The notes under the pieces were generated by a model that was given only the letters and a program-made list of their open reading frames with translations, was not told where the DNA came from and ran no database searches. A DNA stretch of 64,000 nucleotides, taken from assembly GCA_002840785.1 (NCBI GenBank), contig PHCH01000005.1:1-64000 (forward strand), written 5' to 3'. Shown here piece by piece: positions 8,060-62,557 of this stretch. This DNA comes from Betaproteobacteria bacterium HGW-Betaproteobacteria-4. Lineage in GTDB: Bacteria > Pseudomonadota > Gammaproteobacteria > Burkholderiales > Rhodocyclaceae. How positions within the stretch are numbered: position 1 is the first letter of the stretch; each line of letters begins with the position of its first letter. Position numbers and translations under genes: made by a program.

Positions 8060-8068
8060 GGATTCCCC

Positions 8069-8922: not shown

Positions 8923-8962
8923 AAACCAGCTTCAGCCTCAATTTTCAACAAGGAGAAAAACC

Positions 8963-9532
8963 ATGCACCCCAACCCCAAAACCCTGTTCGCCGCCACCCT
9001 CGCCTGCGCCCTGTTCAACACCAGTGCCCTGGCTGCAGATAGCAATTCGGTGCTGATCAAACGTGGCGAGAAACTGATCGCCTATGGTGGCTGCGTCGAT
9101 TGCCACACGCCTTTCAAAATGGGCGCCAACGGCCCCGAGAAGGACATGGCGCGCGGCCTTTCCGGCCATCCCGAAGAGCTTCGCCTGCCGCCTTCGCCCA
9201 AGCTCGACAATGCCTGGAACTGGGCTGGTTCGGCGACCATGACGGCCTTCACCGGCCCGTGGGGCACGACCTATGCCTCCAACCTGACGCCCGACCGCGA
9301 GACCGGCATAGGCGCCTGGCGCGAGCAGGATTTCATCCAGGCCATGCGCACCGGCAAGCATGTCGGCGTGGCCCGCCCGATCCTGCCGCCCATGCCCTGG
9401 CAGGCGGTCGCCTCGTTGTCGGAAAGGGATTTGCGGGCGATTTTCACCTACCTCAAGGCGCAGCCGGCCGTGAAGAACAAGGTGCCCGACTATCTGCCGC
9501 CCGCCACCAGCATCAGCAAAGCCGGCGGCTGA
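8963..9532 (+). CDS. c-type cytochrome (diheme-type family)
   Basis: Signal peptide; CVDCH heme motif; PILPPMPWQAVASLSERDLRAIFTYLKAQPAVKNKVP. Confidence 0.8.
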   Translation: MHPNPKTLFAATLACALFNTSALAADSNSVLIKRGEKLIAYGGCVDCHTPFKMGANGPEKDMARGLSGHPEELRLPPSPKLDNAWNWAGSATMTAFTGPWGTTYASNLTPDRETGIGAWREQDFIQAMRTGKHVGVARPILPPMPWQAVASLSERDLRAIFTYLKAQPAVKNKVPDYLPPATSISKAGG

Positions 9533-11270: not shown

Positions 11271-11368
11271 TCGCCTTCCGCGCTGGAATTTGCGACCGGT
11301 AGCGCCAAGCCGGTCGAACGGTGCCGATTCCGGATTCGGGGTACGTGCTTGAGGTTGGCCAATCATCT

Positions 11369-11404
11369 CCACGGTCAACCGGAAAAAACGGCCAAAATCA
11401 AAAT
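11369..11404 (+). repeat. Interspersed repeat copy 3
   Basis: CCACGGTCAACCGGAAAAAACGGCCAAAATCAAAAT. Confidence 0.85.
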
Positions 11405-11481
11405 AGCTTGCGCGCACGCCAGCCGGCCGCGATCCACGGCAATGCCGCTAAAATGGCCCTGCCTCCACCTCAACGCGCCCG

Positions 11482-12729
11482 ATGACCCGTCCCTCGCTCA
11501 ACACCCAGATCCTGATCGGCTGCCTGCTCGGCATCGCCGGCGGGCTGTGGCTGGCCACCCAGCCGGCTGCGGCGCCCATCGTCGGCAACACGCTGTACGG
11601 CGCCAAGATGCTCGGCAACCTGTTTCTCGACCTGCTGCGCATGGTGCTCGTGCCGCTGGTCTTTTCGTCGATTGTCGTCGGCGTTGCCAATCTACGCGCC
11701 CATCAGCAGATGCATCGGGTGTGGACGACAACGCTGGCCTTTTTCGCGCTGACCATGGGCGTCGCCATCGTCCTCGGCCTGGGCGCTGCCAACCTCTTCC
11801 GCCCCGGAGAAGGCCTGCAACTGGCGATGTTCGCCGACGCCACGCGGGATTTCCAGGCACGCCAGATGCCGCTGCCCGACTACATTGCCCAATTCATGCG
11901 CGGCCTGTTCCAGAATCCGTTCAAGGCGCTGGCCCAGGGCGAGATCCTGGCCGTCGTCATCATTGCCCTGTTTCTCGGCATTGCGCTGGTCATCGGCGGC
12001 GAGCGCTACAAGAACCTGCGCGTGCTGATCCAGGAATTGCAGGAACTCTGCCTGCTCGTCGTCGGCTGGATCATGCACCTCGCCCCGTTCGGCCTCGCCG
12101 CGCTGCTGCTGCAACTGGTCGCCACGCAAAATGCCGATCTGCTCGCCAGCCTGGCACATTTCATCAGCGTCGTCGTCGGCACCACGCTGTTCCACGGCAT
12201 CGTCGTCCTGCCGCTGCTACTCTGGCTGGTCACCCGGATGTCGCCGCTACGTTTCTGGAAAGGCGCCAAGGAAGCGCTGATCACCGCCTTCGCCACGAGT
12301 TCGAGCGCCGCCACGCTGCCCATCACGCTGCGCTGCGCCGAGCAGCATTTGCACGTCAAGAAGGACATCGCCAACTTCGTCGTGCCGCTCGGCGCCACCG
12401 CCAACATGGACGGCACGGCGCTCTACGAAGCGGCCGCCGCGCTGTTCGTCGCCCGCCTGGCCGGCATTGAACTCGATCTCGCCCACCAGCTCATCATCTT
12501 CTTCGTCGCCATGCTCAGTTCCATCGGCGCCCCCGGCATCCCCAGCGTCGGCATGCTGAGCATGGTACTGGTCCTTGAATCGGTCGGCCTGCCCACCGCG
12601 GCGATTGCCATCCTGCTGCCCATCGACCGCATCCTCGACACCGTGCGCACGGCGGTCAATGTCGAAGGCGACATGGTTGGCAGCCTGGTCGTACAGAAGC
12701 TGAGCGAATCGGCTCGGGCCGATCGCTAA
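11482..12729 (+). CDS. Dicarboxylate/amino acid:cation symporter (DAACS family)
   Basis: Multispan; MLGNLFLDLLRMVLVPLVFSSIVVGVANL; AFATSSSAATLPITLRCAEQHLHVKKDIANFVVPLGATANMDGTALYEA. Confidence 0.9.
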   Translation: MTRPSLNTQILIGCLLGIAGGLWLATQPAAAPIVGNTLYGAKMLGNLFLDLLRMVLVPLVFSSIVVGVANLRAHQQMHRVWTTTLAFFALTMGVAIVLGLGAANLFRPGEGLQLAMFADATRDFQARQMPLPDYIAQFMRGLFQNPFKALAQGEILAVVIIALFLGIALVIGGERYKNLRVLIQELQELCLLVVGWIMHLAPFGLAALLLQLVATQNADLLASLAHFISVVVGTTLFHGIVVLPLLLWLVTRMSPLRFWKGAKEALITAFATSSSAATLPITLRCAEQHLHVKKDIANFVVPLGATANMDGTALYEAAAALFVARLAGIELDLAHQLIIFFVAMLSSIGAPGIPSVGMLSMVLVLESVGLPTAAIAILLPIDRILDTVRTAVNVEGDMVGSLVVQKLSESARADR

Positions 12730-20932: not shown

Positions 20933-20977
20933 CTGGGGCGACTGATGGGGCTCGAACCCACGACAACCGGAATCACA
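20933..20977. repeat. attL (remnant of tRNA-His 3' end)
   Basis: CTGGGGCGACTGATGGGGCTCGAACCCACGACAACCGGAATCACA identical to 62480..62524. Confidence 0.95.
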
Positions 20978-21806: not shown

Positions 21807-22574
21807 TCAGAAGTTTCGGATGATCAGTTCATGGCGCTTGGCGCCATTCCCTGAGCCGCCTACTGTGTAGGTAATGTCGACGGTGGTCATGGTTAGGCCG
21901 GCGAAAGCCTGACGCATTTCGGGGATGTCGTTGACAGAAATGATCATGTTTCCCTTGATTGATCTGGCGATCTCTGCCATGCGGTCGTATTGATCGAGGT
22001 TGAAGTCGACGCTGTAGCCTTCTGTGCCCCAGTACGGCGGGTCGCAGTAGAACAGGGTGTGCGGGCGGTCGTAGCGGCGGATGCACTCAGCCCATTCAAG
22101 ATGCTCGATGTAGGTCCGCGACAGTCGAAGATGCGCTGCCGACAAGTCCTCTTCGATGCGCATCAGGTTGATGCGTGGCGGGCTGGTGGTTGCTGTACCG
22201 AATGTGCGGCCGTTGACCTTGCCGCCAAAGCCTAGCTTCTGCAGGTAAAAGAACCGAGCAGCGCGCTGAATGTCCGTCAATGGCTCGACCGGCGTCGCCT
22301 TCAGCCAGTCATACATCTGCCGGCTGGTCAGCGAATACTTGAACTGCCGGATGAACTCCTCCAGATGGTTCTTCACCACCCGGTAAAGCGACACCAGGTC
22401 GCCGTTGATATCGTTCAACACCTCGACATCGACCGGCGCCTTCATGAAAAACAGCGCCGCGGCGCCGCAGAAAGGTTCGACATAGCACGAATGCTCCGGA
22501 AACAACGGCAGCAAATGCTTTGCCAGCCGGCGTTTCCCGCCGATCCAAGGAACAAGGGGGCTTACTTTCGTCAT
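21807..22574 (-). CDS. D12-class (Dam-like) DNA adenine methyltransferase
   Basis: PLVPWIGGKRRLAKHLLPLFPEHSCYVEPFCGAAALFF; FYCDPPYWGTEGY (DPPY). Confidence 0.93.
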   Translation of the reverse strand: MTKVSPLVPWIGGKRRLAKHLLPLFPEHSCYVEPFCGAAALFFMKAPVDVEVLNDINGDLVSLYRVVKNHLEEFIRQFKYSLTSRQMYDWLKATPVEPLTDIQRAARFFYLQKLGFGGKVNGRTFGTATTSPPRINLMRIEEDLSAAHLRLSRTYIEHLEWAECIRRYDRPHTLFYCDPPYWGTEGYSVDFNLDQYDRMAEIARSIKGNMIISVNDIPEMRQAFAGLTMTTVDITYTVGGSGNGAKRHELIIRNF

Positions 22575-48186: not shown

Positions 48187-48543
48187 CTATTTGGCCAGCC
48201 GTACAGCCAAACACCTGAGAATGTCGGCATCCTCCTCGCTCAGGTTCATTTTCGATATTTCCAGAGCCAGGCGGTCCCTTGGCAAGTAAGCGGCAACATC
48301 CTGGCGAACGGACAGAGGCAGGCGCTCGCCGGTGAGAATGTAGATCACGTCGGCACCATGGCCGCGAAACAATTCCAACTGATCGGCGCGAGGGGAAGTT
48401 TTGTTCTCTTCGTAGTAGCGAACAACTTTTCTGTCGACGTCGAAAATATCGCCAAGATCGGCTTGTGACAAGGAAAGGCGGACGCGCTCCTCCCTCAATC
48501 GCTGGCCGATTGATGATTTTTCTTCCCTGTTGCCTGTTGACAT
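48187..48543 (-). CDS. XRE-family prophage repressor (CI-like)
   Basis: IGQRLREERVRLSLSQADLGDIFDVDRKVVRYYEENKTSPRADQL. Confidence 0.88.
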   Translation of the reverse strand: MSTGNREEKSSIGQRLREERVRLSLSQADLGDIFDVDRKVVRYYEENKTSPRADQLELFRGHGADVIYILTGERLPLSVRQDVAAYLPRDRLALEISKMNLSEEDADILRCLAVRLAK

Positions 48544-48598: not shown

Positions 48599-48871
48599 AT
48601 GGAACCAATCAAGCGCAACCCCGACGGACTAGTCAGCAACAAGCCCATCGCCCTGCGGCTGATGCAGGCTGAATTGGCCGATGCCGATAAGATTTCCCGG
48701 GATCTCAATATCTCGAAGTCGCTGCTCGCACGTCAGGCCTATCTCGTCGGTCTCCCTATCGTTGTCTCCTCTGCTGCCGGCAACACCTCCCCCACCCCTC
48801 GGCTGGCGGCAGACTTTTCCGGCGGGGATGCTCCCCCCATCCCCGCCGGCCTTTCTTCGCAGACAGAATAG
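48599..48871 (+). CDS. Small phage regulatory-type protein
   Basis: First gene of the rightward early operon. Confidence 0.45.
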   Translation: MEPIKRNPDGLVSNKPIALRLMQAELADADKISRDLNISKSLLARQAYLVGLPIVVSSAAGNTSPTPRLAADFSGGDAPPIPAGLSSQTE

Positions 48872-48885
48872 GGAGACGGGAAGAA

Positions 48886-49467
48886 ATGGTCATGCAGCGC
48901 GCAACGCACCCCAGCCCCCTCGCCATCGTCCGCGAGCACATTGAAGCCTGGCGCCGGGAAAACCGATGGTCCCGCGAGACCGTCACTGATCAGTTCGTCC
49001 AGTCGCATATCCGCATCGGCGGGCCGACCTTCACCGAAATCCGCTTCGAGCCGCCGACCACCGACACCTTCGAACGCATGCGCGTAAATGCCGACAAGCT
49101 GTTCCGCTGGCTCGACGACAGCACCAAGGACAAGAACCTCCTACCCTTCAATTTCATCCTGTCCATCCTCGCCGGACTGCCGGAAGAACGCCGCGTGCTG
49201 CTGCTCAACGACCTGCTGGCGCCGCTCTGCCTGCATGTCGAAGCCGGCCACGACGACGACAGCGAGGTTACCCATGCCGAACTGGTCGAAACCTTCCAGG
49301 CCTTCGTCGATCACGGCGCCGCCGCCACCATCGCCGCCAGCCGGCTGCTCGATGGCATCCATGCCGGCGAGATCGAGCACGCCGAGAAGAAGCTCGGCCT
49401 GATCGCCTCAACCGTCAAGAAAGCGCGCGGCCTGATGGCCCGCCTGCGCAAAGGGAGAAAGGCATGA
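48886..49467 (+). CDS. Phage CII-like/early regulatory protein (tentative)
   Basis: 193-aa ORF in early operon. Confidence 0.45.
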   Translation: MVMQRATHPSPLAIVREHIEAWRRENRWSRETVTDQFVQSHIRIGGPTFTEIRFEPPTTDTFERMRVNADKLFRWLDDSTKDKNLLPFNFILSILAGLPEERRVLLLNDLLAPLCLHVEAGHDDDSEVTHAELVETFQAFVDHGAAATIAASRLLDGIHAGEIEHAEKKLGLIASTVKKARGLMARLRKGRKA

Positions 49468-49766
49468 GCGAATTCAATCAATGGCGCGTCGTCTGCCCGC
49501 ATTGCGGCGACACCTCCACCGTCCGCAGCTCAAAGCAGATGTGCGACACCGTCCGCGAAGCCACCGTCACCTGCGACAACCCGCAATGCATGCACAGCTG
49601 GGTCGCCCAGCTCGTCGCCGTCCGCACCATCGCGCCGTCCATCAACCCCAAGCCCGGCGTCTTTATCCCCCTCTCCCAGCGCTCTCAAGCCGCGGCACAG
49701 CAGGCAGCCAGCGCTCAAATGGAGCTTGGCATGGAACACCCGCCGCCCCGCCTGGCCACCGGCTGA
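49464..49766 (+). CDS. ogr: Ogr/Delta-type zinc-finger late transcription activator
   Basis: CPHCGDTSTVRSSKQMCDTVREATVTCDNPQCMHSW: C-x2-C...C-x4-C Ogr/Delta signature. Confidence 0.85.
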   Translation: MSEFNQWRVVCPHCGDTSTVRSSKQMCDTVREATVTCDNPQCMHSWVAQLVAVRTIAPSINPKPGVFIPLSQRSQAAAQQAASAQMELGMEHPPPRLATG

Positions 49767-49853
49767 CGCCCTAGCCACCCCCAATTCATCCACCCGCCAG
49801 CACGCTGAAAACAGCGCGCAGGGAATTTTTTTGCCCAAATTTCGGAGCCAACC

Positions 49854-50069
49854 ATGGCAACACAGACACCGGTCAGAGCAATAAAGGAAGCCAAGAAGAT
49901 GGCCAGCGACTACGGCATGTTCGTCGTCGAGAAACCAGGCCGCTTCCTCCTCTACCGCCAGAGCACGCCGCGCAACGTCTATCTCGGCTTCCGCTCCGAT
50001 GTCGCCGCCTTCCGCCGCTTCGTCGAAGCCTGTGCCTATAACAAGAACAAGAAGGCCGTGGCCAACTGA
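49854..50069 (+). CDS. Hypothetical phage protein
   Basis: 71-aa ORF overlapping next start. Confidence 0.5.
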   Translation: MATQTPVRAIKEAKKMASDYGMFVVEKPGRFLLYRQSTPRNVYLGFRSDVAAFRRFVEACAYNKNKKAVAN

Positions 50070-52756
50070 TGAAAGACGAACTCCTCCCAGAAGTCCTGCG
50101 CCGCATCGAGGCCGACTTCAAGTTCAAAAAGGCCTCCGGTGGCTGGCTACAAGGTGGCACCTGCCCGAAGTGCAGCAAGAAGGAACTCTTCGCCAAAGCC
50201 GACAATCCGTGGGTGTTGAAGTGCGGCCGTTACAACAAGTGCGGCCATACGGTCTATGTCAAAGAAGAATACCCGGACATCTTCGACGACTGGTCGAAGC
50301 GCTACGTCCAGACCACCGAGGCGCCCAACGCGGCGGCCGACGCCTACCTGCGCAACGCCCGCGGCTTCGACATCGCGCCGCTCCAGGGCCTCTACACCCA
50401 GGAGTACTACCACGACCGCGACAAGAACATCGGCTCGGCGACGGTGCGTTTTCCCATCGCCAACGGCGGCTACTGGGAAAGGATCATCGACCAGCCAGAG
50501 CGCTTCGGCAAAAAGAAGGCGCACTTCAACTTTCACGCCAACTACCAGGGCACGGCCTGGGAACCGCCGATGCCGCAGCCGGATGACGAAATCTGGTTCG
50601 TCGAGGGCATCTTCGACAGCCTGTCGATGATGGCGCGCGGCACCTTCGCCGCCTCTCCGTTGAGCTGCAACAACTACCCCTACCTCTACCTGCAGGCCAT
50701 CGCCGAGCGCTGCGTGCAGGCCGAAAAGAAGCGCCCGAAGCTCGTTTTCGCCTACGACGACGGCAAGGCCGGCTGCGACTACATGAAGCGCCACGTCGCC
50801 CGGGCCCAGGCCGAAGGCTGGGAGGCCAGCGCCGCCTACATCCGCTTCGAGAGCGGCCGCAAGCGCGACTGGAACGACTACCACCTGGCCGGCGGCATCA
50901 CCGACGAGCTGATCGAGGACGCCCGCTACCGCGGCGCCCTGCTCACCGCCCGCAGCGCCGCCGACAAGGCCGGCATCATGTTTTCCCGCAAGACATGGAA
51001 CTCGTTTTTCTTCGGCTTCGACAACCGCCTGTACTGGTTCGAGATCGACTTTAAAAAGCTCAACGAGGCCAAGACCGCCATCCGCGAAATGGCCGACAAC
51101 GCCCAAAAGACCGACCAGCAGATCCTCGACATGGCGATGGAACAGTCCCGCTCGGTGATCGAGATCGCCAACTGTCTGCCCACCGCTCTCTACTACCAGT
51201 CCAGCGCCCTGACCGATGAGGCCTGGTATTACCTGCGCGTCGATTTCCCGCACGACGGCCCCAGCCTCAAGGCCGCCTTCAACGGCCGCCAGCTACGCGT
51301 CGCCGGCGAGTTCTCCAACCGCCTCATCCACGTCGCCCCGGGCGCCCTCTACACCGGCAACCAGCGCCACCTCGACCTCTGGCTCAAGTCGCAGATGTTC
51401 GGCATCAAGACGGTCGATTCCATCGACTTCATCGGCTACAGCAAGGAGCACAAGGCGTGGATCTTCGACAAGCTGGCCGTCGCCGACGGCAAGCTCATCG
51501 AGCTCAACGAAGAAGACTTCTTCGACATCGGCAAGCGCTCGGTCAATTCCCGCAACAAGACCGTCAACCTCGCCATCAATCCAGACCTCACCGAGTACGA
51601 CGGAAGGTGGGCCAAGATCCTCTGGGACTGCTTCGGCCCCAAAGGCATCGTCGCCCTCGCCTACTGGCTGGGCAGCTTCTTCGCCGAGCAGATCCGCGAA
51701 CCGCACTTCCACGAGTCCTACCCCTTCCTCGAAGTCACCGGCGAACCGAACGCCGGCAAGAGCACGCTCATCGAATTCTTCTGGAAGCTCTGCGGCCGCA
51801 CCGCCTATGAAGGTTTCGACCCGGCCAAGTCCTCCGCCGCCGGCCGCTCGCGCAACCTGGTGCAGGTCTCCAACCTGCCCATCGTGCTCATCGAATCCGA
51901 CCGCGACAAGGGCGAATCGGACAAACTCAAACAGCGCAGCTTCGACTGGGACGAGTTCAAGACCGCCTTCAACGGCCGCAGCGTGCGTAGCCTGGGCGTC
52001 AAGAACAGCGGTACCGACACCTACGAGCCGCCCTTCCGCGGCGCGCTGGTGATCAGCCAGAACGCCAAGGTCGTCGCCTCCGACGCCTTCATGCAGCGCA
52101 TCGTGCACATCTGGCTCGAGGCAACGCCCGTCACCACCACCAGCCGCGCCCACTTCAAGGCGCTCACCGGCTTCCCGGTCAAGGCCTGCAGCGGCTTCAT
52201 CGTCAAGGCCTGCAAGGCCGAGGCTGAGATCCTCAAGACGGTGGCCGAGCGCTACACGGATTACGTCGAGGCACTCGACCTCAACCCGCTGATCCGCCAG
52301 CAGCGCGTCAAGCACAACCACGCCCAACTCATGGCCCTGGTCGACGCCCTGCGCCTGATCGTCAATTTCAGCGATGACGCCTACGCCATGGTCATCAACG
52401 AAATCGTCGCCATGGCCATCGAGCGCCAGGAAACCATCAACGACGACCCGCCGGCCGTCCAGGAATTCTGGGACGTCGTCGACTACATCGAAGACCGCGA
52501 CCAGGACAAGCCGCTGCTCAACCACAGCCGAAACGAGCACGAAATCGCCATCAACCTCAACGAGTTCATCGCCAAGGCCGACGCCTTCCGCCAGCCGATC
52601 CCCGACATGCGCGAGCTCAAGAAACAGCTGCGCCAGAGCCGCAACCGCCAGTTTGTATCCGCCAACGTCACCGTCAATTCGGCCATCACCGGCACTTCAA
52701 AGAAGTGCTGGGTCTTCCGCTGCGAAGACAAGGGCCGCAAGCGCGGCGACGACTGA
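50069..52756 (+). CDS. Bifunctional primase (zinc-finger/toprim) - helicase replication protein
   Basis: CPKCSKKELFAKADNPWVLKCGRYNKCGH; toprim-like IWFVEGIFDSLSMMA and FAYDDGKAG; Walker A VTGEPNAGKSTLIEF. Confidence 0.88.
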   Translation: MKDELLPEVLRRIEADFKFKKASGGWLQGGTCPKCSKKELFAKADNPWVLKCGRYNKCGHTVYVKEEYPDIFDDWSKRYVQTTEAPNAAADAYLRNARGFDIAPLQGLYTQEYYHDRDKNIGSATVRFPIANGGYWERIIDQPERFGKKKAHFNFHANYQGTAWEPPMPQPDDEIWFVEGIFDSLSMMARGTFAASPLSCNNYPYLYLQAIAERCVQAEKKRPKLVFAYDDGKAGCDYMKRHVARAQAEGWEASAAYIRFESGRKRDWNDYHLAGGITDELIEDARYRGALLTARSAADKAGIMFSRKTWNSFFFGFDNRLYWFEIDFKKLNEAKTAIREMADNAQKTDQQILDMAMEQSRSVIEIANCLPTALYYQSSALTDEAWYYLRVDFPHDGPSLKAAFNGRQLRVAGEFSNRLIHVAPGALYTGNQRHLDLWLKSQMFGIKTVDSIDFIGYSKEHKAWIFDKLAVADGKLIELNEEDFFDIGKRSVNSRNKTVNLAINPDLTEYDGRWAKILWDCFGPKGIVALAYWLGSFFAEQIREPHFHESYPFLEVTGEPNAGKSTLIEFFWKLCGRTAYEGFDPAKSSAAGRSRNLVQVSNLPIVLIESDRDKGESDKLKQRSFDWDEFKTAFNGRSVRSLGVKNSGTDTYEPPFRGALVISQNAKVVASDAFMQRIVHIWLEATPVTTTSRAHFKALTGFPVKACSGFIVKACKAEAEILKTVAERYTDYVEALDLNPLIRQQRVKHNHAQLMALVDALRLIVNFSDDAYAMVINEIVAMAIERQETINDDPPAVQEFWDVVDYIEDRDQDKPLLNHSRNEHEIAINLNEFIAKADAFRQPIPDMRELKKQLRQSRNRQFVSANVTVNSAITGTSKKCWVFRCEDKGRKRGDD

Positions 52757-52791
52757 CCCGTATCACCGCATCACAACCAAGGAGATCTACC

Positions 52792-53253
52792 ATGAGCAAT
52801 ACCATCGTCACCAGCCACAAGCTGCAGCGCCTGATCGGCGCCGCCGCCAATATCCAGAGCCTCATGCACGACGGTACCCTCACCGCCGCCTGGGGCGAAG
52901 GCGACGCAGACCAGGTCCACGCCGCAGTCACTGCCTTCGACGCGCTCACCGATGCAGCTGACAAGGTGCGCGCCGAGCAGAGGGCCGCCAGCCCGTTCCT
53001 CCTCTACCGCCGGGAAATCATGGCCGCCACGCCGGCCGGCATGGCCCTGCGCTTTCTGGTCATGTCGCTGTACGGCAGACAGGCCGTGCCACTGCGCGAT
53101 CTGATCGAATACTTCGGCGACCACGAAAAACGCATCGCCATCGAATGCATCACCTGCTTCACCATCAACGGCGACCGCGACAGCCAGTTCATGAGTCTCG
53201 GGATTGAACTCGTCGAAGACGCCTGCAACGAAGCGAGCGAGGTGGCAGCATGA
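52792..53253 (+). CDS. Hypothetical phage protein
   Basis: ATG at 52792 with AAGGAG Shine-Dalgarno. Confidence 0.55.
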   Translation: MSNTIVTSHKLQRLIGAAANIQSLMHDGTLTAAWGEGDADQVHAAVTAFDALTDAADKVRAEQRAASPFLLYRREIMAATPAGMALRFLVMSLYGRQAVPLRDLIEYFGDHEKRIAIECITCFTINGDRDSQFMSLGIELVEDACNEASEVAA

Positions 53254-53648
53254 GCACCAGCAACCTCGACGGAAGCCGCGACACGGCCGCTGACCGCATG
53301 CTCTCCGACTGGCGCAAGGATCTGGTGGAAAGAAACGCCAGGATGAAGGCCGACCGCCCCGCCGGCGAAGCCGCCCTGCGCCGCCTGCTTCCTATCGCCC
53401 AGCGTGACACCGACCAAAGCGGCAGGGTCGCCCGCATCCTGCTCGGACTCTACAACGGCCACCGCTTCCCGCTCAACCTGACCAACCTGCGCAGCCTCGA
53501 CGACGCCATCTTTGAAGACGTCATCGCTGTCCTCCGCATGGACGCCAACGCCTATCAGGAAGTGCACCTCTACTTCGAAAACGGCGGCCGGATATTCGAA
53601 AAGCTGGCTGACGACTGGGGCATGAACGAGAAAGCGAGGGAATCGTGA
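53250..53648 (+). CDS. Hypothetical phage protein
   Basis: ATGA overlap. Confidence 0.55.
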   Translation: MSTSNLDGSRDTAADRMLSDWRKDLVERNARMKADRPAGEAALRRLLPIAQRDTDQSGRVARILLGLYNGHRFPLNLTNLRSLDDAIFEDVIAVLRMDANAYQEVHLYFENGGRIFEKLADDWGMNEKARES

Positions 53649-53818
53649 AAGTCCGTCACCTCATCGCATTGCTACAAGAAATGCCAGAGGACGCCGACGT
53701 CCTCGCTGAAACCATCCGATATGAAACCGGACAGCCAGAACTATTCGCAATCGAGCGCGTCGCCACGGCCGAATCGCCGGTCTACGGCACCGCCGTCGTC
53801 ATCGAACTGGAGGACTGA
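53645..53818 (+). CDS. Small hypothetical phage protein (GTG start)
   Basis: VKVRHLIALLQEMPEDADVLAETIRYETGQPELFAIERVATAESPVYGTAVVIELED; not in ORF track. Confidence 0.5.
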   Translation: MKVRHLIALLQEMPEDADVLAETIRYETGQPELFAIERVATAESPVYGTAVVIELED

Positions 53819-53821
53819 ACC

Positions 53822-54220
53822 ATGCAGATCTTACCCGCTCACAACGTCAGCCTCGTCATCACCGGCCTCACCAACCTGGCCGACGAACTCGAACTGGCCG
53901 AAATGCCGCAATGGCACGCCGTAGCCAGCGCGGCCGCCTGCATTGAACACCTGCTGCACGGCGAAACGCCGACCGACATCGCTGACGTTACCGCCAGCCT
54001 CAAGGATCTGGGTATCAAGAACCCTGGCGTTCGGCGCTGCGGGCAATTCACCTTCCTGCTAATTGACCTGTCTATCACCATGATCGACGCCATCCGCCTT
54101 GGCCTGCTCGACATCCAGCCAAAGCTAGAACGTCCAAAAATCCAGCCACTCTGGATCGGCATCGACATGGCCAAGCCCGGCAAGGACACCACCGTCTTCC
54201 GCGGAGACTGCCATGCGTAA
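53822..54220 (+). CDS. Hypothetical phage protein
   Basis: ORF in operon. Confidence 0.5.
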   Translation: MQILPAHNVSLVITGLTNLADELELAEMPQWHAVASAAACIEHLLHGETPTDIADVTASLKDLGIKNPGVRRCGQFTFLLIDLSITMIDAIRLGLLDIQPKLERPKIQPLWIGIDMAKPGKDTTVFRGDCHA

Positions 54221-54641
54221 GCACTGCAAACGCACCGTCCGCCGCCAGGTCGCGCCCACCCTCGTCGCCTACCTGCTCAATCCGGAAGTCAGCACTCAGG
54301 AGCGCCTGTCCGTCGTCGCCATCCGCAGCGGCTATGCCACCACCGCCCACTTCGACGTTCTCGCCGACTGCCGCGACATGCTTGCCCTCGCCGCCGCCGA
54401 GAAAAACGACAGCCAAACCATGACCATCTGCGAACTGGGCTTCATCGCCCTGCAGAACATCAAGGAGCGCTACCTCGAACGCCAGCGCATCGGCGCCAGC
54501 GGTGACGAGCTGCAAGCCCTGCAAGCCCTCGTCGACATCTCCGAAGACTTCTGGAAACGCCAGTCCGGTGCCCTCTTCATCGACGCCGAAGCCGCCCTCG
54601 GCAAGGCCCGCGCCGAATACCGCGAAAGGAAAGCCGCATGA
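54213..54641 (+). CDS. Hypothetical phage protein
   Basis: ORF in operon. Confidence 0.5.
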   Translation: MRKHCKRTVRRQVAPTLVAYLLNPEVSTQERLSVVAIRSGYATTAHFDVLADCRDMLALAAAEKNDSQTMTICELGFIALQNIKERYLERQRIGASGDELQALQALVDISEDFWKRQSGALFIDAEAALGKARAEYRERKAA

Positions 54642-54904
54642 CCGCCCTCGCCCTCTTCGCCGCCACCTTCTTCCTGGTCCTCTTCCTCGGCCTGCAAAGC
54701 CTCAACGTCAACGGCGGTCACAAGCTGCTCGCCGCCATCACCAGCCTCGGAATCAGCACCGCCAACATCGTTGTCCTAAAAACCATGCCCGGCCCAACCG
54801 GCCTCATGGAAGTCGCCGCCTACTGCCTCGGCGGACCGGCCGGCATCCTCGTCTCCATGGTCATCCACCCGTGGATGGTCACCAAGTTCGGGAGAAAGCA
54901 ATGA
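54638..54904 (+). CDS. Small membrane protein
   Basis: Three hydrophobic segments; overlaps neighbours by ATGA. Confidence 0.55.
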   Translation: MTALALFAATFFLVLFLGLQSLNVNGGHKLLAAITSLGISTANIVVLKTMPGPTGLMEVAAYCLGGPAGILVSMVIHPWMVTKFGRKQ

Positions 54905-55299
54905 CCACAGAAAACATAGCCAAAGCCTTCAACATCGATCCGGCCACCATTGAACTGGTCAACTCCACGGTCAACCGGAAAAACGAGCCAAAAACGGAAA
55001 GCTGCGACTGCCTCAACGACTGCGGCGACGACCCAAGGCTGGACAGCGGCAAGGTCGACTACTGCGACTACCACAAGAAACGCATCGCCATGCTCGCCAT
55101 GATCGAACGGATCCACTGGCTGAAGCCCGCCGACCGCCTTCCCGACGCCGACGAAACCGTCATGATCGTCACCCCGACCCATGACGACCCCGTCTGGCTC
55201 GGCTACTACGACGGCACCACCTGGATAACCGTCGAAGGCCTCCCCCTCGCCGACAACGCGGTCACCGAATGGGCACCCATGCCGCGAGGCCCGCAATGA
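54901..55299 (+). CDS. DUF551-like phage protein carrying an in-frame interspersed repeat
   Basis: IHWLKPADRLPDADETVMIVTPTHDDPVWLGYYDGTTWI; STVNRKNEPKTE from repeat copy 7. Confidence 0.65.
   Translation: MTTENIAKAFNIDPATIELVNSTVNRKNEPKTESCDCLNDCGDDPRLDSGKVDYCDYHKKRIAMLAMIERIHWLKPADRLPDADETVMIVTPTHDDPVWLGYYDGTTWITVEGLPLADNAVTEWAPMPRGPQ
54965..55000 (+). repeat. Interspersed repeat copy 7 (in phage gene)
   Basis: CCACGGTCAACCGGAAAAACGAGCCAAAAACGGAAA. Confidence 0.8.
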
Positions 55300-57077
55300 T
55301 CAACCATCGCGAAATCCGCCACTTCCACATGTGCGGCGCCATCGGTGGCGGCGCCAAGGGCTTCAACCGCGGCCAGGCGCGCGTCGGCAACCTGGTCGCC
55401 AAGTTCCGCTGCCTCGGCTCGGTCGATGTCGACGCCGCAGCCAACCGCGACTTCCAGCGCCTGGTCGGCGTGCCGGCGACGACGCTGGACCTCTTCGACC
55501 GCGACCAGTACCTCGCCTTCCACGGCAAGGAACCGCCGGCCGGCTGGCGCGAGGCCACCCCGGCGGACATCCGCGCCGCCGCCGGCCATGAGTTCCCGCA
55601 CATCGTCTTCACCAGCATGCCGTGCAAGGGCTTCAGCGGCCTGCTCAACGAGACCAAGAGCAAGACCTCGAAATACCAGGCGCTCAACCGCCTGACGCTG
55701 CGCGGCATGTGGCTGATGCTCGAAGCCTTCGCCGAGGATCCGCCCGAGCTGATCCTGTTCGAGAACGTCCCGCGCATCGCCACCCGGGGCCGCCACCTGC
55801 TCGACCAGATCAACAGCCTGCTGACCTCCTACGGCTACGCTGTCGCCGAGACCACCCACGACTGCGGCGAACTCGGCGGACTGGCCGAGAGCCGCAAGCG
55901 CTTCCTGCTCGTCGCCCGCCACATCGCCAAGGTGCCGCCCTTCCTCTACGAACCGGAGAAGAAGCGCCTGCAGGGCGTCGGCACGGTGCTCGGCCGCATG
56001 CCGCTGCCCGGCGACCTCACCGCCGGCCCCATGCACCGCGTGCCCAACCTGCAATGGAAAACGTGGGTCCGCCTCGCCTTCGTCGAAGCCGGCAGCGACT
56101 GGCGCAGCCTGAACAAGCTGGCGGTCGACAACGGCCACCTGCGCGATTTCCTGATCGTGCCGGAATTCAACCGTGGCTACCTCGGCGTCAATCGCTGGGA
56201 CGAGCCGGCCGGCACTATCACCGGAAACACCAGGGCCACCAACGGAAACTTCTCCGTCGCCGATCCGCGCTTCCCGGCCGGCGGCGAATACGGCCAGCTC
56301 GGTGTCCGCGCCTGGGACGAACCGACCGGCGCCATCACCGGCCAGCGCAGCCCCATCCAGGGCGGCTTCTCGGTCGCCGACCCGCGCCACTTCGGCCCGG
56401 CCAAGCACAGCAACGAATTCCGCATCGTGCCCTGGCACCAGAACGCCCAGACCGTCACCGGCGCCCACGGCACCGGCCAGTGCGTCGCCGACCCGCGCCG
56501 CGCCGGCGACGGCTTCGGCAAATACCTGGTCACCCCCTGGGACAGCCCCTCCGGCGCCGTCATTTCCGGCAGCACCACCGGCCAGGGCGCCTACGCCGTC
56601 GCCGACCCGCGCACCGGCCTCGATCGCGCCAAGGGCGACCACTACCTGACCGCCGGCCACTACGGCGTCACCCCGTGGGATAGCCCGAGCGGCGCCGTCT
56701 CGGCCGCCGCCGGACACGACAACGGCCGCTGGTCCGTCGCCGACCCGCGCATGCCGGAACAGACCGACAAACTGGTCGCCCGCATCCGCGCCCTCGACGG
56801 CACCTGGCACCGCCCCTTCACCACCCTCGAACTCGCCGCCCTGCAAAGCCTCGTCGATCCCGAAGAACACCTCGAACTCGACGGCCTCAGCGACAGCGAC
56901 TGGCGCGAACGCATCGGCAACGCCGTCCCGCCCGCAGCTGCCGAAGCAATCGCCGGCGTAATGGGCGTCACGCTGCTGCTGGCGTGGTCAGGCGAGACTT
57001 TCCTGCTCTCGTCCATGCCCATCTGGGTGCGGCCGGTAGCGATGGCACTGAGCGTTGCACAGGGAGGTGCAGCATGA
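55296..57077 (+). CDS. Divergent C5-cytosine DNA methyltransferase with internal repeats
   Basis: FHMCGAIGGGAKGFNRG, TSMPCKGFSGL, LFENVPRI, ESRKRFLLVAR, IGNAVPPAAAEAI; five VADPR-ending units. Confidence 0.85.
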   Translation: MINHREIRHFHMCGAIGGGAKGFNRGQARVGNLVAKFRCLGSVDVDAAANRDFQRLVGVPATTLDLFDRDQYLAFHGKEPPAGWREATPADIRAAAGHEFPHIVFTSMPCKGFSGLLNETKSKTSKYQALNRLTLRGMWLMLEAFAEDPPELILFENVPRIATRGRHLLDQINSLLTSYGYAVAETTHDCGELGGLAESRKRFLLVARHIAKVPPFLYEPEKKRLQGVGTVLGRMPLPGDLTAGPMHRVPNLQWKTWVRLAFVEAGSDWRSLNKLAVDNGHLRDFLIVPEFNRGYLGVNRWDEPAGTITGNTRATNGNFSVADPRFPAGGEYGQLGVRAWDEPTGAITGQRSPIQGGFSVADPRHFGPAKHSNEFRIVPWHQNAQTVTGAHGTGQCVADPRRAGDGFGKYLVTPWDSPSGAVISGSTTGQGAYAVADPRTGLDRAKGDHYLTAGHYGVTPWDSPSGAVSAAAGHDNGRWSVADPRMPEQTDKLVARIRALDGTWHRPFTTLELAALQSLVDPEEHLELDGLSDSDWRERIGNAVPPAAAEAIAGVMGVTLLLAWSGETFLLSSMPIWVRPVAMALSVAQGGAA

Positions 57078-57661
57078 GCGACCTCTTCTATCTGCAGGAC
57101 AGCCGCGGCTTGACTGGCGAAAATATGATGTTTTGGGCTTTCGGCGGTGGATACACCTCTGATATTCGCCAGGCGGAAGTTTTCTCTAAAGAGGCCGCCG
57201 TTCGTCAGCACCAAAGCCGAGAGTCCGACATTCCTTGGCCTGCTGAGTACATCAAAGGCCGCTTTTACACGCCCGTTGATATGCAGCACTTACGGCACGC
57301 CGATGGCAACAGCAGGGATGTGGCTTTTTACGAACAAGTTCCAGGTCGCTGGATCGGCAACGACTGTCTGTGGGTTTATGGCAGCACGGAAACAACTGAT
57401 CTACGGCTGGCCAGCGTGTTCGCCAGTCTGCAGCCGGGGTGCGTGATGTGGCCTGTTGAAGAAATTCAGAAGCTGGCGAGGCCGGCAGTGCGGGCTAGTG
57501 ACGTTTCGATAAAGGAAGCGCTGGATGGATCTGGAATCGTTATCAACAAACCCAAGCGCACCAAACGCGAAGTGTTCAACTGCCACCAGTGCGGACGCTT
57601 CATAAGCGAGGACCAGCGTTTCTTTGACTGCCCGAACTGCGGCGCGGAGAACCGGCCATGA
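57074..57661 (+). CDS. Hypothetical phage protein with C-terminal zinc ribbon
   Basis: FNCHQCGRFISEDQRFFDCPNCGAE. Confidence 0.6.
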   Translation: MSDLFYLQDSRGLTGENMMFWAFGGGYTSDIRQAEVFSKEAAVRQHQSRESDIPWPAEYIKGRFYTPVDMQHLRHADGNSRDVAFYEQVPGRWIGNDCLWVYGSTETTDLRLASVFASLQPGCVMWPVEEIQKLARPAVRASDVSIKEALDGSGIVINKPKRTKREVFNCHQCGRFISEDQRFFDCPNCGAENRP

Positions 57662-58041
57662 TCGCCCTATCCATCCGCCAGCCCTGGGCCTGGCTCATCC
57701 TAAACGCCGGCAAGGACATCGAAAACCGCGACTGGAAAACCCCCTACCGCGGCCCCTGCCTGATCCACGCCTCGAAGTCGGCCACCAAGCAGGACTACCA
57801 GGACGCCATCGACTTCATTAACTGCCGCCTTGACCACCCGATTATCGAAGTCCCGCCCATCGACCAGTTCGACCGCGGCGGCATCGTCGGCATGGTCGAC
57901 ATCGTCGGCTGCACCGACACCTCCGACTCCCCCTGGTTCGTCGGCGACTACGGCTTCGTCCTGCGCAACCCGAAACCCTTGCCCTTCACCCCCTACAAAG
58001 GCCGCCTCGGCTTCTTCAACGTCCCGGAGATCAAACCATGA
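57658..58041 (+). CDS. ASCH-domain protein
   Basis: ALSIRQPWAWLILNAGKDIENRDWKTPYRGPCLIHASK. Confidence 0.85.
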   Translation: MIALSIRQPWAWLILNAGKDIENRDWKTPYRGPCLIHASKSATKQDYQDAIDFINCRLDHPIIEVPPIDQFDRGGIVGMVDIVGCTDTSDSPWFVGDYGFVLRNPKPLPFTPYKGRLGFFNVPEIKP

Positions 58042-58385
58042 GCCAAGCAATCTACCCGGCCACCCTGGCCGCCATGACCGCCAAGCGCGCCGGCGAAAAA
58101 TACCGCCCCAGCAACGGCACCGAAGGCGACCTCTTCTTCGCCGCTTGGTGCGGCAAATGCCAGCGCGACAAAGCCATGCGCGAAGGCTGCGCCATCGAAG
58201 AGTGCGACGACAGCGAACGATGCGACCTCATCGCCTCCACCATGATGTTCGACATCGACGAACCGGGCTACCCGACCGAATGGCAATACGACAAAACCGG
58301 CCAGCCCAGCTGCACCGCCTACATCCCCGCCGGCGACCTGCTCCCACCGCAACGCTGCGAGCACACCCAGGACCTGTTCGCATGA
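58038..58385 (+). CDS. Hypothetical phage protein, Cys-rich
   Basis: AAWCGKCQRDKAMREGCAIEECDDSERCDL; last gene before integron. Confidence 0.6.
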   Translation: MSQAIYPATLAAMTAKRAGEKYRPSNGTEGDLFFAAWCGKCQRDKAMREGCAIEECDDSERCDLIASTMMFDIDEPGYPTEWQYDKTGQPSCTAYIPAGDLLPPQRCEHTQDLFA

Positions 58386-58395
58386 TCGCGACAGG

Positions 58396-58462
58396 ATTTA
58401 ACGCTTAGGTAAGCGGCCGAGCGGCGTAGCCGCGAAGGTCGCGCTTGACCGCCGTGTTCGGC
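58396..58462 (-). repeat. attC site A
   Basis: Minus: GCCGAACACGGCGGTCAAGCGCGACC...CCGCTTACCTAAGCGTTAAAT; arms GGTCAAGCG/CGCTTACC with extra C. Confidence 0.82.
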
Positions 58463-58488
58463 GGCGCTTTACGGACAAGGAGAACGAA

Positions 58489-58803
58489 ATGGAACACATG
58501 GAAATAGTGGATATGAGCACCGAAGAGGGACGCGCAACGGTTGAGGAATACGATCGCGACAAGGCCGAGACGGTGCGCTTTGGGCAGCAGCTTTTCGCAA
58601 AGATCAAGCGCAGCAGCAAGTATTACAACCAGAACGAATGGGCGGAGGCCGAACCGAAACGCTGGGGAGGATTTCCGTTCAAGGTGCGGGTCGATCCGAC
58701 CTACGGCGAATACTGCATTCAGGGCGGCCCCGGCGGGCAATACCGGCTGGCCGACGTGAATCTCTTCGTTGTCGAGGGCGGCCGCGAGCTGCGGATTTCG
58801 TGA
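58489..58803 (+). CDS. Cassette-borne hypothetical protein
   Basis: AAGGAGAACGAA Shine-Dalgarno then ATG; 104 aa, coding-like. Confidence 0.7.
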   Translation: MEHMEIVDMSTEEGRATVEEYDRDKAETVRFGQQLFAKIKRSSKYYNQNEWAEAEPKRWGGFPFKVRVDPTYGEYCIQGGPGGQYRLADVNLFVVEGGRELRIS

Positions 58804-58804
58804 C

Positions 58805-58866
58805 GCCGAACGCTGGCGGTAACGCGACTGAGCGTAGCGAAGGTCGCGTTGACCGCAATGTTGGAC
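58805..58866 (-). repeat. attC site B
   Basis: Minus: GTCCAACATTGCGGTCAACGCGACC...TCGCGTTACCGCCAGCGTTCGGC; arms GGTCAACGCGA/TCGCGTTACC with extra C. Confidence 0.82.
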
Positions 58867-58879
58867 GGCTGACGCCACC

Positions 58880-59365
58880 ATGCTGATACCACTTGTGACC
58901 TTCGAGGAAATTGACCTGGCGGCGGCCAATGAGTGCTTGGCCGCCTGGGGCCACAAGATGGGGCCGCTTGAGCGCGGGAACAAGGCCGGCGTTCACTACG
59001 CACTGTGCCACGACGGGCGGCCGGTGGCGGTGGCGATGACCTCGACGCTGATTCGTGAGCGGGTAGGCGGTGGATTGGGACACCTGACGCGCGAGAATGC
59101 CTGCGAGCTTTCGAGGCTTTGCGCCGAGCGCGCCGGACTCTGCCGGGTTGCACTGCGGCTATGGCGGGAGTTCGTTTTCCCGGCGACGGGTTACGAGTAT
59201 GCGATCAGCTACCAAGATGCGGACATTCACAACGGGAACACCTACCGCTTCGACGGCTGGACGCGAGAGGCGTTTTCTCGCAGCGGAACCGACAGCCGGA
59301 GTGGCCGCCGGGGAAGAAACAAATGGATATGGGTATGGCGCAACCCAAAGGCGCCCAACGCTTAG
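58880..59365 (+). CDS. Cassette-borne Mom-like (GNAT-fold DNA modification) protein
   Basis: CHDGRPVAVAMTS...ELSRLCAERAGLCRVALRLWREFVFPATGYEYAISYQDADIHNGNTYRFDGWTREAFSRSG. Confidence 0.55.
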   Translation: MLIPLVTFEEIDLAAANECLAAWGHKMGPLERGNKAGVHYALCHDGRPVAVAMTSTLIRERVGGGLGHLTRENACELSRLCAERAGLCRVALRLWREFVFPATGYEYAISYQDADIHNGNTYRFDGWTREAFSRSGTDSRSGRRGRNKWIWVWRNPKAPNA

Positions 59366-59435
59366 GTGATGGGCCGAGGCAACGCCAGTTGCCGAAGGTC
59401 CAGCGCGAAGCGCGACATCGACCGGAGTGTTAGAA
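59353..59435 (-). repeat. attC site C
   Basis: Minus: TTCTAACACTCCGGTCGATGTCGCGC...CATCACCTAAGCGTTGGGC; arms GGTCGATG/CATCACC with extra C. Confidence 0.8.
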
Positions 59436-59467
59436 GGCTGCGGTCAACAAGGAAAAGAGGTGAAAAA

Positions 59468-59698
59468 ATGGGGCAAGCAAAACAACGAGGAACGTTCTTG
59501 CAGCGCAAGGTCGAAGGTGAGGCAAGACGTATTGCCGAAGAACTGCGCCGCCGGGAAGAGGAAGCGGCGCGCGAGGCGGCATTGACGCCAGCACAAAAAG
59601 AAGCGCGCCGAAAACTGCAAATGGCGATTGGGTTTGTGACGGCCATTACACCGCCAGAAGTGCTGGCGGCTGCGAAATTCGGAAGGGCATTGTTTTGA
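59468..59698 (+). CDS. Cassette-borne small charged helical protein
   Basis: MGQAKQRGTFLQRKVEGEARRIAEELRRREEEAARE with AAGAGG ribosome-binding site. Confidence 0.65.
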   Translation: MGQAKQRGTFLQRKVEGEARRIAEELRRREEEAAREAALTPAQKEARRKLQMAIGFVTAITPPEVLAAAKFGRALF

Positions 59699-59699
59699 C

Positions 59700-59786
59700 T
59701 TCTAACTTGAATTCAACGACACCCGATGTCGCGCCACCCGGCCGCGATGTCGCTTAAGACAAACCGAATCTCCGGAGGACAGCACC
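59700..59786 (-). other. attI candidate
   Basis: Between intI start and first cassette; minus end TTGAATTCAAGTTAGAA; direct repeats GATGTCGC at 59725 and 59746. Confidence 0.55.
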
Positions 59787-60812
59787 ATGCCTGCCGTTAT
59801 TGAAAAAAACGCGACACACGAAACCGCCAAACGCGACATCGTTCCGGTGGCTCAACAGCCCCGCCTGCTCGACCAGGTTCGGGCCCGCATCTGCGTCCTG
59901 CACTACAGCCGGTCGACCGAGAAAACCTACATCCACTGGATTCTCGACTTCATCCGCTTTAGTGACCGGCGCCACCCGAAAGATATGGGCGCGCAGGAAG
60001 TTGAAGCCTACCTGTCGCACCTGGCTACCGACCGCGATGTCGCTGGCGGAACGCAGAACCAGGCCATGCATGCCATCCTGTTTCTCTACAAGCAGGTGCT
60101 CGGCATTGACCTACCCTGGCTGGACGGCGTCACACGAGCCAAGGAAAGCAAGCGCATTCCGACCGTCCTGACGCAGTCTGAGACACGGGCGCTACTCGAT
60201 CAGACCAGCGGACTGCCCGGACTAGTCATCCGCCTACTCTACGGTACCGGCATGCGCCTGATGGAAGGCCTGCGCCTGCGAGTCAAGGACATCGATTTTC
60301 ACGGCCGTGCTATCACCGTCCGTGCGGGCAAAGGAGACAAGGATCGCATCGTCCCGCTGCCGGAATGCCTGATCGAACCGCTTAAGGCCAGGCTCGACGA
60401 GCGGCGAAAGATGCATGACGTCGATCTCGCCAAAGGCATGGCCGACGTCGAACTGCCGCACGCTCTTGAACGGAAATACCGCAACGCCGGCAAGGAGTTC
60501 GGCTGGCAATACATCTTCGCCGCTGCCGACTACTCGACCGACCCGCGCACCGGCGTCATCCGCCGCCACCACCTGCACGAAAAGACTATCCAGCGCCACG
60601 TCAAGGAAGCCGCCCGGCGCGCCGGCATCCTGAAACCGACACACCCGCACACCCTACGCCACAGCTTCGCCACCCACCTGCTCGAATCCGGTGCCGACAT
60701 CCGCACCGTGCAGGAACTGCTGGGCCACGCCGACGTCTCGACAACGATGATCTACACCCATGTTCTCAACCGCGGCGGCCGCGGCGTCATCAGCCCGCTG
60801 GATAGGATCTGA
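59787..60812 (+). CDS. intI: Integron integrase (IntI-family tyrosine recombinase)
   Basis: [13 protein letters not shown]-like N-terminus; IntI-specific insert [63 protein letters not shown] catalytic region [39 protein letters not shown]. Confidence 0.95.
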
Positions 60813-61125: not shown

Positions 61126-61504
61126 TTTCCTGACAACCGCCGAGATTGCGGACCTGACGGATCGCCAGTTGCCGAGCAAGCAGATTGCCTGGCTGGCCGA
61201 AAACCGCTGGAAGTTCGCCGTCTCGGCCGCCGGCAGACCGAAGGTGGCGCGGTCATTCTATGATTTCATGCTCGGGACAGCGACGAAAGAACCCGACGAA
61301 CAACAAGAACCTGATTTCTCTGGCTGGGTGAACAAGCATGGTGGGGCGACGGAAAAGCAATCTGGAACTCGGCATGAGCCGGCTCTACGTCTACGAGGGA
61401 AAACGGACGACGACCTATTACACAATCGACCGCCACAACAAATACATCAACCTCGGCAAGGACCTTCGCTCAGCCAAAAAACAGCTGCTCGAGCTGGAAG
61501 GTGA
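61118..61504 (+). CDS. DUF4224-type protein, overlaps integrase
   Basis: SSFLTTAEIADLTDRQLPSKQIAWLAENRWKFAVSAAGRPKVARSFYDFMLG. Confidence 0.7.
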   Translation: MSSFLTTAEIADLTDRQLPSKQIAWLAENRWKFAVSAAGRPKVARSFYDFMLGTATKEPDEQQEPDFSGWVNKHGGATEKQSGTRHEPALRLRGKTDDDLLHNRPPQQIHQPRQGPSLSQKTAARAGR

Positions 61505-62366
61505 AGCGCCAGAACCCGGTACCATCGCCGACTACCTGGACGACCTGATCAAGGCGCGCTGGAAGCTGGTCGCGAAAAAGAAACTGGCCACTCGCACCGT
61601 CGAAACGAACGAATCGGAGGCAGAGAAGCTAAAAGACTTCTTCGGCAATATGAAGCCGGAGGCCGTCAAGCCATCCCACGTCTGGCTCTACCTGCACAAA
61701 TACCGCGGAGCCGAAAGCCCTGTCCGCGCCAACCGCGAAATTGCCCTTTTATCGACCCTGTTCAACGGCCTGCTCGGCGCCGGTATCGTCGACAGAAACC
61801 CGTGCGTCGGCGTCGAGCGAAACACCGAGACCCCGCGCGACAGACTGGTCAGCGATATAGAGTTCAAATCATTCCTGAAATACTGCTGGCGCCACGGCGA
61901 CGCCGGCCGCCGCATCGCCCTGGCCGGCTACATCGCCTACATCACCGGCAAGGCCCAGGGCCAAATCCTGAGACTCAACCGGGGCCAGCTAACCAAGGAC
62001 GGAATCGCGTTCGCCAAACGCAAGCGCGGCGCCGAAACGCTAGTCCTCTGGACCCCGCTACTGCGCAAGCTGATCAAGGCCTCGATAGACATGCCATGCA
62101 CCATCGATCCGCTCTACGTCATTCACAGCCAGGCCGGCACACCCTACACGACATCGGGATTCAAGGCCCTGTGGCATCGCCGCATGGGCGAATGGTGCGC
62201 CCTCGGCCACGAACGCTTCACCTTCCACGACCTTCGCGCCAAAGCCGTCACCGACATGACCGAGCAGGGCCGAAAAGCCAGCGACCTAACCGGCCACCGC
62301 CAGGAATCAACCATCGCCAGCGTCTACGACCGCCGCCGAGTCCGAAAATCCCACGCCGTGAAGTAA
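61338..62366 (+). CDS. int: Phage integrase (tyrosine recombinase)
   Basis: FTFHDLRAKAVTDMTEQGRKASDLTGHRQESTIASVYDRRRV; adjacent to attR/tRNA-His. Confidence 0.93.
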   Translation: MVGRRKSNLELGMSRLYVYEGKRTTTYYTIDRHNKYINLGKDLRSAKKQLLELEGEAPEPGTIADYLDDLIKARWKLVAKKKLATRTVETNESEAEKLKDFFGNMKPEAVKPSHVWLYLHKYRGAESPVRANREIALLSTLFNGLLGAGIVDRNPCVGVERNTETPRDRLVSDIEFKSFLKYCWRHGDAGRRIALAGYIAYITGKAQGQILRLNRGQLTKDGIAFAKRKRGAETLVLWTPLLRKLIKASIDMPCTIDPLYVIHSQAGTPYTTSGFKALWHRRMGEWCALGHERFTFHDLRAKAVTDMTEQGRKASDLTGHRQESTIASVYDRRRVRKSHAVK

Positions 62367-62479: not shown

Positions 62480-62524
62480 CTGGGGCGACTGATGGGGCTC
62501 GAACCCACGACAACCGGAATCACA
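62480..62524. repeat. attR
   Basis: 45 bp identical to attL 20933..20977. Confidence 0.95.
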
Positions 62525-62557
62525 ATCCGGGACTCTACCAACTGAGCTACAGCCGCC
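62481..62557 (-). tRNA. tRNA-His (GTG)
   Basis: GGCGGCTGTAGCTCAGTTGGTAGAGTCCCGGATTGTGATTCCGGTTGTCGTGGGTTCGAGCCCCATCAGTCGCCCCA; G-1:C73 pair; encoded CCA. Confidence 0.97.

Follow-up and report, generated by a model that had tools for sequence, protein, structure and literature searches.

Can an integron keep canonical recombination sites while its cassette genes read in the opposite sense, and if so, what would transcribe them? The question is raised by a locus in the 64,000-nucleotide stretch (hereafter the window) at positions 1 to 64,000 of the forward strand of contig PHCH01000005.1, from Betaproteobacteria bacterium HGW-Betaproteobacteria-4 (GenBank assembly GCA_002840785.1). Judged by its parts, the locus is a complete integron, made up of an integron integrase gene (intI), its attachment site attI and three gene cassettes with attC sites, and it lies in a prophage. 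The first-pass annotation of this DNA had offered two readings of its layout: cassettes inverted to be read by phage transcription, or a reversed integron type. The former is now strongly supported by standard attC sites, inverted genes and an array, intI and upstream operon that are co-directional in about 30 contigs, and we consider it very probable that this is a phage-adapted integron, its inverted cassettes being read toward attI and intI by transcription from the phage operon. The parts of the integron, from left to right, are:

58396-58462, minus strand: attC 1 (distal); covariance model score 35.8 bits; extra C in the minus-strand L'' arm; its left end, ATTTAAC, abuts the constant phage flank
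58489-58803, plus strand: cassette gene A, 104 amino acids, phage family of unknown function (phrog_18597, 1e-17; codon score 35 versus 0)
58805-58866, minus strand: attC 2; covariance model score 41.2 bits
58880-59365, plus strand: cassette gene B, 161 amino acids, weak Mom-like DNA-modification/acetyltransferase similarity (phrog_1384, 1.7e-6; codon score 12.6 versus 0)
59353-59435, minus strand: attC 3 (attI-proximal); covariance model score 28.2 bits
59468-59698, plus strand: cassette gene C, 76 amino acids, an open frame after attC 3 that stops just before the attI box
59700-59786, minus strand: attI; related phages share the sequence rightward from the crossover C and differ to its left
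59787-60812, plus strand: IntI integron integrase, 341 amino acids, of a phage IntI clade (TIGR02249 integrase_gron, 465 bits, cut-off 265)

The polarity of the attC sites was assessed with a covariance model (CM R1) trained on 30 attC sites from cellular integrons with sense cassettes, oriented by those genes and first chosen by an attC scanner that demands an extra base in the L'' arm. Because the polarity of the training sites agrees with gene sense in cellular loci, the model counts as a test of polarity. Over the whole window it placed all three sites on the minus strand (E-values of 4e-7 to 3e-4), the best plus-strand score being 7.3 bits with filters off, and across 41 loci 163 of 163 attC matches fell on the strand opposite intI. 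The extra C sits in the minus-strand 5' arm (L'') at each site (GGTCAAGCG, GGTCAACGCGA and GGTCGATG). The first-pass annotation had described the canonical attC pattern on the minus strand, the standard geometry for an intI on plus, and both lines of evidence bear this out; the plus-strand placement that it had named as contrary evidence did not occur. Folding both strands of each site as single-stranded DNA, a check it had also proposed, gave energies (plus/minus, kcal/mol) of -20.6/-18.4, -15.0/-14.1 and -17.7/-15.3, so that the plus strand is slightly the more stable at all three, as would be expected if plus were the recombining attC bottom strand, the differences being small. Applied to 554 kb of related loci, the attC scanner returned 86 sites, against 1 in Markov-shuffled sequence at an equal threshold, which is more than chance would give. 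An Rfam scan left the attC sites unmatched and found only a tRNA. Complementarity of the R boxes was dropped as a polarity criterion, since the segment ends pair equally under both polarities; it supports only that the cassettes are real.

The three open reading frames (ORFs) that the first-pass annotation had put on the plus strand lie there, starting 27, 14 and 33 nucleotides past an attC (genes A, B and C). Its further statement that each stops at the next site holds for genes A and B, which end at or within the following attC; gene C instead ends at the attI box (59700-59706). Plus-strand coding was supported by a codon model (frame-test accuracy 90%) and by PHROG matches for genes A and B, and by third-position-biased divergence for gene A, which differs from its relative in phage array L006 at 23, 23 and 43 sites by codon position and has homologues of 58-61% identity in phage arrays L006, L007, L008 and L020. 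For gene C the codon model gave a signal on neither strand. On these signals the cassette genes are on the plus strand, antisense to their attC sites, and because they are opposite in sense inside each cassette, the attC precedes the gene. The TAG stop codon of gene B lies inside attC 3 (AAC GCT TAG, 59353-59365), and this motif of attC could supply the stop of antisense genes in general.

The crossover point of attI falls between 59705 (A) and 59706 (C) on the plus strand, G^TT on minus. The attI core, AACTTGAATTCAACGACA, is conserved throughout the phage clade, and the site carries direct repeats of GATGTCGC. It is placed at the 5' end of intI, which is transcribed away from it, while the cassettes point toward it. 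Given canonical attC polarity and this attI position, insertion by IntI is expected to take place at attI and to leave cassettes in the normal orientation.

To compare cassette orientation in homologous integrons, as the first-pass annotation had suggested, we searched viral contigs and found 61 that encode relatives of the window IntI. Strands were counted for segments between attC sites defined by the covariance model, after removal of redundancy and with each segment called by the codon model, in a phage set of 35 loci (including the window and two related prophage-like contigs from metagenome-assembled genomes (MAGs), L073 and L074) and a cellular set of 40 loci. Segments were called 81 antisense to 5 sense in the phage set versus 13 to 69 in the cellular set, and by locus the majority was antisense in 30 and sense in 1 of the former, versus 3 and 30 of the latter. 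The method by itself does not produce antisense calls: locus L038 and the integron published for Shewanella phage M16-3 both score sense. Matches to protein families point the same way as the strand counts: in the phage arrays, the longest antisense ORFs (112) matched 74 PHROG and 13 Pfam families, the longest sense ORFs (90) 2 PHROG families and 1 Pfam family. Related antisense cassette genes, compared in nine pairs, differed at 240, 201 and 555 sites in codon positions 1, 2 and 3. In the IntI tree the window falls in a group of 37 (35 phage sequences including the window, and the two MAG contigs) with support of 100/99; one antisense array, L030, lies outside it. Coding DNA to the left of the arrays amounts to 104 kb on plus versus 6 kb on minus, and within the arrays to 46 kb versus 2.4 kb (near-copies kept in both counts). 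Because the flanking coding DNA is so overwhelmingly on plus, the arrays end long operons reading toward intI, and array, intI and long upstream operon are co-directional in the window and about 30 related phage contigs.

Two further loci deserve mention in their own right. In L002 (5634-9038) attC sites lie on both sides of intI (7610-9038 downstream), with plus-strand genes between them. L075 (3454-7835), on a Gallionella MAG contig, scored mainly antisense and includes a phage-like gene; its flanks hold genes that by eye resemble ABC (ATP-binding cassette) transporter genes, and it is probably chromosomal.

Comparison of the natural genomes of near-identical phages shows gain or loss of whole antisense cassettes exactly at the integron crossover. 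L006 and L007 have a near-identical intI and right flank, L007 holding extra cassettes, and their sequences switch at two junctions that are exactly RYYYAA|C on plus and G^TT on minus; the unit moved consists of an attC and the gene on its right, so that the attC lies upstream of the gene. L006 and L031 share a cassette at 86% identity, in a block that runs from the left attC to the right attC, the left attC being only 60% alike over the compared stretch. In the pairs L006/L007, L031/L034 and L004/L005, attI and the sequence rightward of it are shared and the immediate left differs.

The array sits, by its gene context, at the end of a phage early operon. The surrounding features are:

20933-62519: P2-like prophage, bounded by exact 40-bp att repeats (tRNA 3' end)
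20933-20972: attL, left end of the prophage; exact 40-bp repeat shared with 62480-62519
48187-48543, minus strand: repressor-like phage regulator, divergent from the early operon (phrog_4836, phrog_8 and phrog_4 regulators)
48599-58385, plus strand: early phage operon, reading into the array (PHROG and Pfam matches)
50069-52756, plus strand: primase of the early operon (PHROG/Pfam)
55269-57077, plus strand: DNA methylase of the early operon (PHROG/Pfam)
57658-58041, plus strand: ASCH protein of the early operon (PHROG/Pfam)
61338-62366, plus strand: phage tyrosine integrase for prophage insertion, not IntI (PF00589, 1.9e-8; phrog_1, 9e-29)
62480-62519: attR; exact 40-bp repeat at the 3' end of a tRNA gene
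62484-62556, minus strand: tRNA gene (Rfam match; anticodon apparently His, judged by eye)

Every called gene between 48599 and 58385, a CII-like activator among them, is on plus, in agreement with the first-pass annotation, which had given the plus strand as the direction of the upstream phage operon. Gene order on this strand runs from the early operon through the three attC-bounded genes to IntI and the phage integrase. The head, tail and tape-measure genes of the prophage match phrog_70, phrog_73, phrog_23 and phrog_28, which we take to be P2-type head and contractile-tail families; together with the 40-bp att repeats, these matches mark a P2-like temperate phage. The IMG/VR contig L001 appears to be the same phage, its IntI and all three cassette proteins being 100% identical to those of the window. 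Among the phage contigs tested for a P2-type capsid, L001 alone was positive, and the integron is therefore apparently not confined to P2-like phages, as far as fragmentary contigs allow. A search with phrog_2, presumably the large-terminase family, gave matches in 5 of 28 phage contigs. A minus-strand gene at 21807-22574, in the prophage's left end, looks by eye like a Dam-type methylase.

We propose that transcription would start at the phage early promoter, cross the whole array in the direction of attI and continue into intI and the phage integrase, each captured gene being expressed together with the early genes. With captured genes read by the early operon, a cassette promoter (Pc) would be unneeded. 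Canonical cassettes would face operon transcription, whereas inverted ones would join the operon, and this is our proposed reason for the inversion: selection for co-transcription would have caused it. In a weaker step of the proposal, the attC bottom strand, being the non-template strand, would be displaced by read-through and may thereby fold more readily for recombination. A scan with the sigma-70 consensus found no sigma-70-like promoter in 58300-60100, and no LexA-type box (CTG-N10-CAG) was found in 59500-60000.

Several observations count against an inverted, operon-read array. Since the promoter scan covered the sigma-70 consensus only, a Pc of another kind could be present. Five phage-set cassettes were called sense, and L042 (4596-5561), an exception within the phage clade, has a duplicated cassette with a sense helix-turn-helix (HTH)-like gene (PF13560). 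Many short cassettes receive no strand call from the codon model, and only two of the three window cassettes (A and B) have recognisable protein relatives. Finally, that IntI is active is suggested by cassette turnover in relatives rather than in the window phage.

Could the locus instead be an ordinary integron, with the plus-strand ORFs spurious and the real cassette genes on minus or absent? The attC polarity would then be normal, and long overlapping minus-strand ORFs are present in this GC-rich DNA, but plus is the strand indicated by the codon score, by the matches to phage families and by synonymous divergence, leaving this hardly credible. Nor does luck account well for the arrangement: a normal integron might happen to hold three of the minority antisense cassettes, which cellular loci do contain (13 of 82 called, including some near attI in the host's chromosomal integron), but a mainly antisense array occurs in 30 of 31 decided phage loci versus 3 of 33 cellular loci, and a single IntI clade accounts for most of the phage loci, which makes a chance origin very unlikely. 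The other reading of the first-pass annotation, a reversed integron type, fails in its published sense. The reverse integrons of Treponema have an intI that reads toward attI and in the same direction as the cassettes (PMC3607928, PMC7691350). The window resembles them in that intI and cassettes are co-directional, all on plus, but the Treponema label rests on a flipped intI (PMC3607928), not on flipped cassettes, and the cassettes there lie beyond attI, whereas here they are antisense to their attC sites and point toward an attI that adjoins the intI 5' end. We find co-direction through a flipped intI extremely improbable; the position of attI and the strand of the attC sites, as read from sequence, already refute it.

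A different doubt concerns cause and not anatomy. The inversion might stem from the way cassettes are made, an attC being joined 5' of the gene, without selection for co-transcription. In its favour, attC types are common to phage and host, and one host type occurs once with a sense gene and elsewhere with an apparently antisense gene. Against this, the arrays are co-directional with a long upstream operon in nearly all loci, which cassette making alone would not require, and in virus Rctr41k co-direction seems to come about through a different layout, the cassettes there being sense and intI directed at the attC sites. We consider such an origin rather unlikely.

The phage-adapted integron with inverted cassettes can be set beside known systems. 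With the chromosomal (sedentary) integrons of Proteobacteria it shares a TIGR02249 IntI, an attI at the intI 5' end, canonical attC structure and polarity, and turnover at G^TT; unlike them, the phage arrays have cassettes antisense to attC, a separate IntI clade and no recognised Pc, and lie within an early operon that would read them. Integrons and clusters of attC sites lacking an integron integrase (CALINs) have been described in phages (Shewanella phage M16-3, a P1 derivative and Vibrio phages) in a survey of NCBI phage genomes, not IMG/VR, in which phage attC sites were usable by IntI1 in an assay; antisense cassettes or a phage IntI clade were not found in the passages searched of this paper (Qi et al. 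2023, PMC9892861). The IntI of M16-3 is 95% identical to the Shewanella IntI and its cassettes are sense by our reading; this phage appears to have acquired its integron from a bacterium. Virus Rctr41k (KX853513.1, L071 4680-9434) encodes an IntI-like 'xerD', 46% identical, with genes annotated as hypothetical or general proteins; it resembles the window in having a phage IntI relative, attC-like sites and one-directional genes, but its attC-like sites are on plus downstream of intI and its genes sense, apparently a reverse-integron layout. Antisense cassette arrays in phages were nowhere described in the literature searched, which covered openly readable papers other than preprints. We therefore file the window locus provisionally as an integron with a new arrangement variant, and not as a reverse integron because its intI does not read toward attI.

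What would the arrays carry? Cassettes of the phage arrays match C5, N6/N4 and Dam methylases, Mom, PAPS (phosphoadenosine phosphosulfate)-reductase-like and DHH proteins and dATP/dGTP pyrophosphohydrolase, and three members match the defence-database family SspD. This suggests that cassettes serve DNA modification and counter-defence, most being without known function. The array would then be a swappable set of early accessory genes, some of them for DNA modification and nucleotide metabolism, and host restriction is the most likely target. A chromosomal integron in the genome of the window strain (L070, G000:C73:14000-26080; 9760-11973) lies near genes reading as serS and rarA; its IntI is 59% identical and its attI-proximal cassettes score antisense. 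One of these attI-proximal cassettes encodes a protein of 152 amino acids that shares 86% identity with the product of an antisense cassette in phage L007. Other arrays of this genome, on C80 and C169 (L198 and L199), have sense cassettes, and on C169 an attC near-identical to one of L070 follows a sense gene. This pattern fits cassette movement between phage and chromosome, in either direction. Whether several phage types share a dedicated integron class, with its own IntI clade, inverted cassettes, a swappable early counter-defence library and cassette trade with host chromosomal integrons, is evenly balanced in our judgement.

The orientation of cassettes relative to attC is usually treated as fixed by recombination chemistry and Pc. 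A clade with the opposite arrangement would separate the two, the rules of recombination being kept and those of expression turned round, and how cassettes acquire their attC becomes testable, one attC type occurring with genes in either sense. Recent reports, as cited in PMC12444791, indicate that bacterial integrons store anti-phage genes. The arrays described here, rich in methyltransferases, Mom and nucleotide enzymes, would be the counterpart on the phage side, and one cassette gene is common to a phage array and the chromosomal integron of the window strain.
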